A program made the translations under genes and the position numbers. 64,000 nucleotides of DNA, taken from contig NZ_PDNV01000001.1 of assembly GCF_002849615.1 (NCBI RefSeq), forward strand, positions 124,001 through 188,000, read 5' to 3'. Origin of the DNA: Pollutimonas nitritireducens. GTDB lineage: Bacteria > Pseudomonadota > Gammaproteobacteria > Burkholderiales > Burkholderiaceae_B. Under the pieces are notes generated by a model. That model ran no database searches. It was not told the origin of the DNA and saw nothing but the letters and a program-made list of their open reading frames with translations. Shown here in pieces: positions 35,302 to 37,856 of the stretch; position 1 is the first letter of the stretch, and every line of letters begins with the position of its first letter.

Positions 35302-35868
35302 ATGAAACCAAATAACCAACATCCTACCCGCCAGGACGCAGCCTTATTGCGTAAAACGCTACTTAAGCTTACGGCAGCCCAGAAAACACTGTGTGTCGTC
35401 GTCGTGATCCTGGTAGCCCTTGTCTGGTACAAGCTGCTCAACCGCTTGGTTGCTTTCGGTCGAGACATTGATTATGGCGGTTTACACACCTTAGGTGTCC
35501 AGACTATTGCCCTGCTGAAACAATACAACCCTTTCTTCTGGTGGGCTGTCGTAGCATTGTGCACACTTATTATTGCCTATTTCCTGTACGTCTTCGTACA
35601 GGGCACGCAGCGGCGGGTGCGTGTCAAGCAAGTCAGTGAAGAAACCGTGGCCATGCTGGCCCAGCAATTATCCGAACCCGCCCTTGAAGTGCTGCGCTGG
35701 GCATGGACCGATCGCCGCAACCCCATTACCGTGGGCGACCTGCAACGGACCGCGCGTGAAATCGGCCACGGCAGGGCCGCCAAAATAACATTGGTGCGCC
35801 GGCATGCCGCCTTGATCGCCCCACCTTCCATCACCCCCCGCCCCGAAAAAACCTTGCCAGAAGTCTGA
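35302..35868 (+). CDS. Two-helix membrane protein, function unknown
   Basis: A 188-residue protein. An N-terminal cytoplasmic stretch precedes TM1 (LCVVVVILVALVWYKLL, about residues 29-46). A short external loop leads to TM2 (FFWWAVVALCTLIIAYFLYV, about 76-95). The C-terminal half is a soluble basic domain with LAQQLSEPALEVLRWAWTDR. That part looks like a small helical or winged-helix-like fold, but I do not recognise a family. Its ATG is only 15 bases from the rpoN ATG on the opposite strand, so each promoter must lie within the other's coding sequence or be very compact. Confidence 0.72.
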   Translation: MKPNNQHPTRQDAALLRKTLLKLTAAQKTLCVVVVILVALVWYKLLNRLVAFGRDIDYGGLHTLGVQTIALLKQYNPFFWWAVVALCTLIIAYFLYVFVQGTQRRVRVKQVSEETVAMLAQQLSEPALEVLRWAWTDRRNPITVGDLQRTAREIGHGRAAKITLVRRHAALIAPPSITPRPEKTLPEV

Positions 35869-35889
35869 AAATATGGTTGACTGTAGGGT

Positions 35890-36033
35890 ATGAGATCCGA
35901 ACACGCCATTCCCCATAACACCCGTTCCCGCAGCGTCGCTGCCGGCGGGTCGTTACGTGTTCAGGGCGTTGTACGCCCCACCCCCGCTGCGCTCGCCCTA
36001 TCGCTGCTACTACCGATCGGTTGCCGGACCTAG
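35890..36033 (+). CDS. Candidate leucine-rich leader peptide of leuA (attenuation control)
   Basis: A 47-codon ORF, too short for most gene callers, beginning ATG AGA TCC and ending at TAG 36031-36033. Near its end it reads AALALSLLLPIGCRT, with five Leu codons within seven codons: CTC, CTA, CTG, CTA, CTA. Three are the normally rare CTA. Clustered codons for the pathway's end product just before an amino-acid biosynthesis gene are the hallmark of transcription-attenuation leaders (compare E. coli leuL). The SD is weak (AGGGT very close to the ATG). The next 130 bases up to leuA contain inverted repeats. Confidence 0.6.
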   Translation: MRSEHAIPHNTRSRSVAAGGSLRVQGVVRPTPAALALSLLLPIGCRT

Positions 36034-36082
36034 CGTCTCGTGGCAGTTCGGCAGCCTGTTCCAGCCACATCTCCTACCTTCA

Positions 36083-36127
36083 ATTCACCGTTTTGAATGC
36101 GCTCCGTCCTTTGACGCTCCGGTGAAT
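36083..36127 (+). promoter_or_regulatory. Stem-loop in the leuA leader, possible attenuator element
   Basis: Inverted repeat ATTCACCG (36083-36090) and CGGTGAAT (36120-36127) around a 29-base loop that itself can pair GCG with CGC. Further upstream in the leader, GCAGC/GCTGC (35930-35942) and GGGCG/CGCCC (35964-35978) also form small hairpins. No U-tract follows the last stem, so a classical terminator is not evident. Confidence 0.4.
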
Positions 36128-36164
36128 ACGCCTTCAACGATTCAAATAAGCAAACAGGTGCCCA

Positions 36165-37856
36165 ATGATTTCGAACCCATCTGACAAATACCGTCCGTTT
36201 GTACCGTTCACGCGCGATTTTTCCGAGCGAACCTGGCCTAGCAAGCGCATCACCCATCCACCCATCTGGATGAGCACAGATCTTCGGGACGGCAATCAGT
36301 CCCTCATCGAACCCATGAGCGTGGACCGCAAGCTGCGCTTCTTCGAGCAATTGGTGAAAATCGGGTTCAAGGAAATCGAAGTGGGTTTCCCATCGGCGTC
36401 GCAGACTGACTTCGATTTCGTCCGCAAGCTTGTCGACGAAAACCGCATCCCCGATGACGTTACCATCATCGTCCTGACGCAATCCCGCGAAGACTTGATT
36501 CGCCGCACAGTCGAATCGGCGGCCGGCGCCAAACAGGCCATAGTCCACCTGTACAACGCATGTGCTCCGGCATTTCGCAAGATCGTCTTCAATATGAGCA
36601 AGGAAGAAGTCAAGCAAATAGCCATCGACGGCACCCGTCTGGTCAAGGAATGCACCGGCCAGCATCCCCAGACATCATGGCGCTATGAGTACTCGCCTGA
36701 AGTCTTCAGCACCACCGAACCCGAGTTTGCACTGGATGTCTGCAACGCTGTCACCGACGTGTGGCAGCCCACGTCCGAATCCAAGATCATTTTCAACCTG
36801 CCCGCCACGATAGAAGCTACCACACCCAATCTGTACGCGGACCAGGTCGAATGGATGCATAACAATCTCAAGCAGCGCGACTGCATCGTGCTCAGCGTGC
36901 ACCCGCATAACGACCGAGGCACGGCGGTGGCAGCTGCCGAATTTTCCGTGATGGCGGGAGCTGATCGGATCGAGGGCTGCCTGTTCGGCAATGGCGAACG
37001 CACGGGAAATGTCGACCTGGTCACCCTTGCACTGAACCTGTACACGCAAGGCATACATCCCGGGCTGAACTTCTCCGACATCGACGAAGTGCGCCGCTGT
37101 GTGGAGTATTGCAATCAGTTGCCTGTACACCCCCGTCATCCTTATGCTGGCGACCTGGTCTTCACCGCCTTTTCGGGCTCGCACCAGGATGCCATCAAGA
37201 AAGGTTTTGCCCAGCAAAAACCCGACACCTTGTGGGAAGTACCGTACCTGCCCATCGATCCGGCCGACCTGGGCCGCAGCTACGACGCCGTCATACGTGT
37301 CAACAGCCAGTCCGGCAAGGGCGGCGTGTCCTACCTGCTCGAACAGGAACACGGCCTGGTATTGCCACGCCGCCTGCAAATCGAGTTCAGCCGCGCCATT
37401 CAGCGCGTCACCGATGAAACAGGATCCGAAGTTACCGCCTCGAAGGTGTTCGACGTATTCACCGAAGAATACCTGGATCGCGATCAGCCATGGAAACTGA
37501 TTCGGCACCGTATCACGGGCAATCCCAAGGCGAATCCCGGCCAGCAGTTCGCCATTGAAGTGGAACTCGAGGAAAACGGTGAAGTACGCCATCTGACCGG
37601 CGAGGGCGACGGTGCCATTTCGGCGTTCGTGGCCGCATTGGACGCCGATGTCCGGATCATGGATTATCACGAGCATGCTATTGGCACCGGCACCAACACT
37701 CGCGCGGCTTCCTATGTGGAACTGCGGGTTGGCGATTCGCCCACGGGCTTTGGCGTGGGCATTCATGGCGATATCGTGACCGCATCTTTCCTGGCGATAC
37801 TGGGAGCAGTCAACCGGCATGCCGTCAATACACCGGCAGAGGCACTGGCTGGATAG
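36165..37856 (+). CDS. leuA: 2-isopropylmalate synthase (long, yeast-type LeuA)
   Basis: A 563-residue enzyme that condenses acetyl-CoA with 2-ketoisovalerate, the first committed step of leucine synthesis. The HMGL-like TIM barrel has the catalytic/metal motif DLRDGNQSL near residues 39-47, [16 protein letters not shown], and the metal-binding [14 protein letters not shown]. The C-terminal part (about 440-563) is the leucine-binding regulatory domain ([16 protein letters not shown]). The opening [20 protein letters not shown] is typical of the yeast-type subgroup found in many proteobacteria. It lies behind a candidate leader peptide and ends before a strong terminator. Confidence 0.96.

Follow-up and report, generated by a model that had tools for sequence, protein, structure and literature searches.

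A leucine-codon uORF and a pseudoknot upstream of leuA in Pollutimonas nitritireducens: a probable counterpart of the actinobacterial LEU element

The leuA leader and its parts

The window, that is, the whole 64,000-nucleotide stretch of Pollutimonas nitritireducens DNA analysed here (contig NZ_PDNV01000001.1, positions 124,001 to 188,000 of the forward strand), carries a leuA gene that had been taken for the yeast type from the letters alone; its product scores 800.8 bits against TIGR00970 (cut-off 697.4), which confirms the assignment. The gene is separated by 296 bases from the end of the ORF upstream of it, at 35868. This gap holds a uORF of 47 codons, in which a run of seven codons includes five for Leu (three of the five are CTA), followed by inverted repeats. 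All of these parts had been described in the sequence-only reading of the locus, and all are present (Table 1). The 47-aa product of the uORF is MRSEHAIPHNTRSRSVAAGGSLRVQGVVRPTPAALALSLLLPIGCRT.

The inverted repeats make up two helices in the order a1-b1-a2-b2, which defines an H-type pseudoknot with a helix A of 11 bp and a helix B of 5 bp. The 5' arm of helix A is formed by the last codons of the uORF itself. Model R1 of the leader finds it once in the genome of the organism.

Table 1. Parts of the leuA leader in window coordinates
Feature	Positions	Strand	Basis and remarks
-35-like hexamer TTGCCA	35854..35859	+	recurrence by eye; promoter role putative
Conserved box ATATGGTTGACTG (family form ATATGTTTGACTA)	35871..35883	+	probable core promoter region
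uORF, 47 codons and TAG (ATG...TAG)	35890..36033	+	probably leaderless, from box-to-ATG spacing
Leu run CTC-GCC-CTA-TCG-CTG-CTA-CTA	35992..36012	+	codon reading and relatives
a1, 5' arm of helix A, GGTTGCCGGAC	36019..36029	+	Gly-Cys-Arg codons and first two bases of the next codon
uORF stop TAG, within loop L1	36031..36033	+	alignment of relatives
b1, 5' arm of helix B, GTGGC	36040..36044	+	pairing and covariation
a2, 3' arm of helix A, GTTCGGCAGCC	36046..36056	+	pairing and covariation
b2, 3' arm of helix B, GCCAC	36064..36068	+	pairing and covariation
Possible third hairpin, closed by TTCACCG/CGGTGAA	36084..36126	+	by eye, window and closest relatives
leuA Shine-Dalgarno (SD) region AACAGGTG	36153..36160	+	letters; SD pairing predicted
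leuA, 2-isopropylmalate synthase, yeast type	36165..37856	+	TIGR00970 above cut-off; putatively controlled gene

Conservation in the family

A LeuA search of the window's family (presumably Burkholderiaceae) covered 121 genomes and gave matches in 119. Upstream stretches were taken in 110 cases (30 loci and 80 stretches), one of them with wrong coordinates, so that 109 were usable. A 21-nt core is found, with at most seven mismatches, in 105 of these 109 leaders and in 38 of 40 genera; it is lacking in L095, L099, L102 and L107. Nine extra leaders, two with the element and seven without, bring the total to 107 of 118, a count that stands apart from G069 with its partial leuA. The 11 leaders without the element belong to seven genomes of 0.8-1.7 Mb (g8, g39 and part of g24) and to g34, which accounts for four of them and in which the sole LeuA match is 56% identical. 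The small genomes, which keep leuA, are represented by the four leaders named above together with L243, L244 and L245.

Reading frame, leucine codons and start of the uORF

Conservation of the reading frame and of the Leu cluster in relatives had been set beforehand as a check, and both are kept. Over the ten codons before the core, 105 relatives have a mean of 5.24 Leu codons in the frame of the uORF, and either alternative frame has a mean of 0.67. At least four Leu codons occur within those ten in 100 of 105 leaders when read in the uORF frame, compared with 2/105 and 0/105 in the other two. Of 104 leaders, 102 have an uninterrupted stretch of 35 or more codons in the frame of the uORF; the corresponding numbers for the other frames are 47 and 68.

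The choice of Leu codon is equally distinctive: CTA makes up 314 of the 550 Leu codons of the run in the 105 family leaders, and occupies the final Leu position of the run in 102 of them. The same codon accounts for none of 1169 Leu codons in leuA itself (30 loci), for 4 of 162 at uORF positions -11 to -30, and for 52 of the 1521 Leu codons read from 31 long ORFs of the window, a set that may include some non-genes. Enrichment of CTA in the run is a prediction of codon sensing, and pairing with the SD would leave it unaccounted for. The putative sensing half of the leader, i.e. the reading of its Leu codons, is well supported by these counts.

The end of the peptide is also conserved, as the sequence-only reading had anticipated: the uORF ends in IGCRA-stop in 63 of 105 leaders and in IGCRT-stop in nine. 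The stop position reads TAG in 100 and TCG in five, the stop being displaced in those five. Helix A is probably the main reason for the conserved -GCRA/T ending, since the peptide letters shift where the helix shifts (GHRA, GRRA, GCLA).

With up to three mismatches to ATATGTTTGACTA allowed, 80 of the 105 leaders carry the box of Table 1 ahead of the uORF; in 72 of them, a start codon in frame is found at 18-20 nt, counted from the start of the box. In most of the leaders displayed, a TTGC(C/A)A-like hexamer was seen by eye at a matching distance 5' of the box; a scan with the sigma-70 consensus returned no site at the window's putative promoter. The position of a -10 region fixes the approximate start of transcription. 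With the box as -10 region, transcription would start about at the ATG of the uORF, which is probably leaderless. Several leaders of g6 and g43 have their first ATG 36-77 nt from the box.

The pseudoknot inside the family

For covariation inside the family, 102 distinct leaders were aligned (alignment A1), the identical L044, L048 and L087 having been removed beforehand. Helix A is paired in 99.3% of cells, and four of its pairs show double changes, in nine cells that are partly common to close relatives and reflect about five independent events by eye. RNAalifold recovers helix A unprompted, minus one pair. Helix B is paired in 95.9% of cells, a figure depressed by rows misaligned at b2 (e.g. 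L070 and L086), and shows no double changes inside the family. When the two helices are taken together, none of 500 shuffles matches any of five covariation measures.

The dimensions of the knot vary little: loop L1 has 9-11 nt in 99 of 100 leaders, the gap between b1 and a2 is 1 nt in 94, and loop L3 has 4-12 nt in 99. Both these lengths and the duplex test described below refer to 100 of the 105 leaders, L091, L092, L098, L101 and L106 being left out as leaders in which the script did not place a2. Downstream of b2, the genus-mean z of the fold energy averages -1.07 and lies below -1 in 18 of 38 genera; at 36084-36126 the fold energy is weakly below that of shuffles in the window's genus (z -0.5 to -0.9). 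A third hairpin was considered as part of the model and dropped because of the weakness of this signal. By eye, some relatives have stems at similar places, with other sequences.

All Rfam matches in the window score far below the gathering scores, and in 11 loci none reaches gathering level. A ligand riboswitch is thought unlikely, because one arm codes for protein and the arms covary freely. The 11-bp length of helix A had also brought a frameshift or stop read-through element to mind as a possible reading.

Leaders outside the family

Model R1 matched 13 of 200 genomes of the order, eight of them outside the family, and 8 of 274 genomes of the class, seven besides the window's own. Apart from L123 and L130, all matches stand before leuA, L118 by way of its twin locus L146. 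A LeuA search of the order (64 of 200 genomes matched, and 25 loci outside the family were read) added L149 and L151. The set used for covariation outside the family comprises 14 leaders from nine other families, L125 being omitted as its letters are those of L126.

In this set, helix A is paired in 148 of 154 cells, 15 of which are changed on both sides relative to the family consensus. Helix B is paired in 68 of 70 cells, with 17 changed on both sides (variants include GCGAC/GTCGC, GCGGC/GCCGC and GCGCC/GGCGC), the b arms of the 14 leaders having been picked by hand beside a2, a choice that favours this helix. For either helix, none of 2000 permutations is as good. When these 14 leaders were given to a blind finder, it reproduced the arms of L134, L146 and L151, extended helix B in L119 and gave one of 4 bp in L127; for the remaining nine it gave other pairings for helix B or for both helices. 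Both helices covary once leaders outside the family are included. The covarying stems expected in the sequence-only reading are found in this form: helix A inside the family, and helices A and B together in the 14 leaders outside it.

In five leaders of three families (L119 of f35, L145 and L149 of f21, L125 and L126 of f135), the uORF continues beyond the pseudoknot to a TGA that overlaps the start of leuA (ATGTTGA). This overlap suggests translational coupling between the uORF and leuA, and fits poorly with the simplest sign of control.

Other arrangements before leuA were noticed by eye while these loci were read. A second type of Leu-rich leader peptide, ending like GLLRLAR-stop or GLLLRPAR..-stop, stands before yeast-type leuA without the pseudoknot core in L139, L143, L144, L147, L148, L150, L152, L153, L155 and L156; a comparison of L143 and L148 with Rfam gave no match. 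Tandem Leu-rich uORFs, the first of a GLLLR..R type and the second of the pseudoknot type, are seen in L145, L146, L149, L151 and L154 (f21 and f25), and the two of L151 are separated by a hairpin that the finder reports as terminator-like. Finally, L157 (f49) and L158 (f9) have Leu-rich uORFs followed by strong terminator hairpins before yeast-type leuA, and resemble classical attenuators.

Relation to known leader elements

The closest known system is the actinobacterial LEU element, not enterobacterial leuL. As described by Seliverstov et al. (2005; PMC1262725), the LEU element lies before actinobacterial leuA and consists of an ORF with a Leu run, a pseudoknot and a base stem between the Leu run and the SD; a protein was proposed as its regulator, and no intrinsic terminator was described. 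Parts of two further reports deal with such leaders, one giving four Leu codons for the leader peptide of leuA in Corynebacterium glutamicum (PMC4046766) and the other a ribosome-protected uORF before leuA in Mycobacterium abscessus (PMC4974804). Among open-access PMC papers, no report of the element outside Actinobacteria was found; the survey of proteobacterial attenuation by Vitreschak et al. (2004) might mention one.

For comparison, 80 actinobacterial leuA loci were fetched, and leaders were placed by script in 69 of them. In a blind search for pseudoknots, 58 of these 69 score above all ten of their shuffles, and most of the listed leaders read as Leu run, first arm, stop, GACCGGC, 0-1 nt, second arm and GCCGGTC. 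At loci such as L171, L182 and L190, a -10-like hexamer is seen by eye a few bases 5' of the GTG or ATG of the uORF.

As far as letters can tell, the window's leader shares the architecture of the LEU element, the likeness being one of the order of parts: model R1 matches none of the actinobacterial leaders, and its three matches in the 80 loci are at chance level. Both elements lie before leuA, have a Leu run in the uORF and build their pseudoknot with the uORF end. Both follow the order Leu run, a1, stop, b1, a2, b2, with a first stem of about 11 bp and mostly one nucleotide between b1 and a2, and an intrinsic terminator is absent from both descriptions. In contrast, the LEU b1/b2 helix GACCGGC/GCCGGTC has 7 bp where the window's GTGGC/GCCAC has 5, LEU Leu codons are CTC and CTT where those of the window's family are mainly CTA, and the base stem between Leu run and SD is unsupported in the window's genus (mean z -0.4). 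The LEU-type uORF may be leaderless in both groups.

In enterobacterial leuL, a leader peptide with Leu codons including CUA precedes leuA, and a terminator competes with an antiterminator. The window's leader likewise has putatively regulatory Leu codons, including CUA, before leuA, but it has no intrinsic terminator, its alternating stems are those of a pseudoknot, its leuA is of the yeast type and its uORF is probably leaderless. The Rfam Leu leader does not match it. The layout of leuL minus its terminator, as proposed in the sequence-only reading, gives way to a pseudoknot that overlaps the uORF stop in the manner of the LEU element. A more distant parallel is the repY-repZ leader of IncI plasmids such as ColIb-P9, in which translation of a leader peptide and its end point decide whether a pseudoknot forms. 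The end point of translation gates a pseudoknot in both cases (in the window, by proposal); repY-repZ serves plasmid replication control and involves an antisense RNA, and no kinship is claimed.

A proposed mechanism and its output

With a probability of about 0.7, the leader is a leucine-codon-sensing pseudoknot element that controls leuA, and the family's counterpart of the actinobacterial LEU element. A ribosome standing on the UAG would be expected to cover a1 and to reach b1, and one stalled on the run to leave most of a1 free. When charged tRNA-Leu is sufficient, the ribosome would reach the UAG and keep the pseudoknot from forming, its footprint lying over a1, the loop and the beginning of b1. 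When it is scarce, the ribosome would stall at the CUA codons just 5' of a1 and the pseudoknot would form. The change between the unformed and the formed pseudoknot would then switch leuA on under leucine shortage.

The output may lie at the leuA ribosome binding site, a reading drawn from fold models to which we would give slightly less than even odds. When the ribosome holds a1 and b1 open, GCCTGTT (36054-36060, the end of a2 and part of L3) may pair with AACAGGT of the SD. The fold models of the window's genus cover L001, L002 and L003. Predicted openness of the SD with the ribosome on the Leu run rather than at the stop is 0.61 against 0.32 in L001 and 0.50 against 0.33 in L002; in L003 it is 0.45 in both states. 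For two leaders of the genus, the difference between stall and stop is 0.23 with their own leader and 0.02 with swapped leaders.

Across the family, at up to three leaders per genus, moving the ribosome from stop to stall raises mean predicted SD openness by 0.043 (p 0.0002), and blocking the Leu run raises it by 0.045 (p 0.003). In both openness tests, own leaders have no advantage over swapped ones (p 0.45 for stop to stall and 0.80 for the blocked run; 65 leaders, 38 genera). Masking of the SD by a single part of the leader was also tried as a general rule and rejected, since duplex energies of own and swapped leaders do not differ significantly for the Leu run, a1, L1 with b1, or a2-b2. 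For the stretch 3' of b2, pairing is worse with the leader's own SD than with swapped ones (p 0.002; 100 of 105 leaders). SD masking, which had been suggested from the letters, is possible in the window's genus, as modelled for L001 and L002; L003 shows no such effect, and the swap tests over 38 genera are not significant. What is conserved is the putative sensing half of the leader; its output appears to vary from one lineage to another.

Alternative explanations

Among the alternatives, the one that survives best is that the position of the ribosome, or the pseudoknot, governs the access of Rho. It would suit the lack of an intrinsic terminator in the 105 leaders, and the composition after b2 is suggestive: in 81 leaders with b2 placed, the first 20 nt contain 14-16% G and 64-68% C+T, with G at 24-28% further on. 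Composition alone is weak evidence, however, and ribosomes that translate the uORF run as far as leuA in f21, f35 and f135, which should protect from Rho at plentiful leucine. Control by Rho is unlikely on balance.

Less likely again is the proposal made for the LEU element in 2005 (PMC1262725), that a protein binds the pseudoknot and the Leu run serves a base stem with the SD instead of codon sensing. In that paper, mutations of the Leu codons of Streptomyces leuA had some effect, unlike the expectation of classical attenuation, and its conclusion is that they leave regulation uninfluenced; these results are a point against leucine-codon sensing. In the family, pairing between the Leu run and the SD reaches z < -2 in 19 of 105 leaders, where about 2.6 are expected. 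The genus-mean z falls below -2 in g43, g30, g36, g12, g16 and g4, and blocking the run lifts predicted SD openness most in g16, g4 and g36. Against this, the mean z is only -0.4 in the window's own genus, the signal is lost when the target is widened (one of 38 genera at z < -1.5), and rare CTA codons are retained where pairing is unseen. The base stem is weak in Actinobacteria too, with 3 of 58 leaders at z < -2 and GGAG in the best partner in 42 of 58. A protein site is further at odds with helix letters that covary freely.

Arrest of the ribosome by the nascent -IGCRA-stop ending could draw on the conservation of that ending and of IGCRT-stop in the counts given above, yet the ending varies along with helix A and is read through in other families, which leaves this explanation very improbable. 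The least probable is classical transcription attenuation by an overlooked intrinsic terminator: f49 and f9 do have terminator-like hairpins after the Leu-rich uORFs of their yeast-type leuA genes, but the finder that detects those of L157 and L158 finds none between uORF stop and leuA in 105 leaders, and a scan of the window's plus strand found nothing, in line with the sequence-only reading, which saw no obvious U-tract terminator.

Implications

The presence in two distant groups of a pseudoknot that overlaps the end of a Leu-codon uORF raises the possibility, which we hold with some doubt, that ribosome-gated pseudoknots are a class that crosses phyla. In such a class, a ribosome on Leu codons would decide whether the knot forms, in place of a terminator or a ligand; the uORF would be leaderless, and the position of its stop would let the ribosome undo the knot as it terminates. 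The authors of the 2005 study could not reconcile the Streptomyces mutants with attenuation (PMC1262725). The window's family keeps its rare CTA codons where pairing between the run and the SD is not demonstrable, which separates codon sensing from base pairing, and this separation could settle how the actinobacterial LEU element works. With a second version in a distant group, one that has both rare-codon enrichment and covariation, the choice between codon sensing, base pairing and protein binding becomes directly testable. The element represents an RNA class absent from Rfam, and gives an account of how a large bacterial family may control its leucine synthesis.
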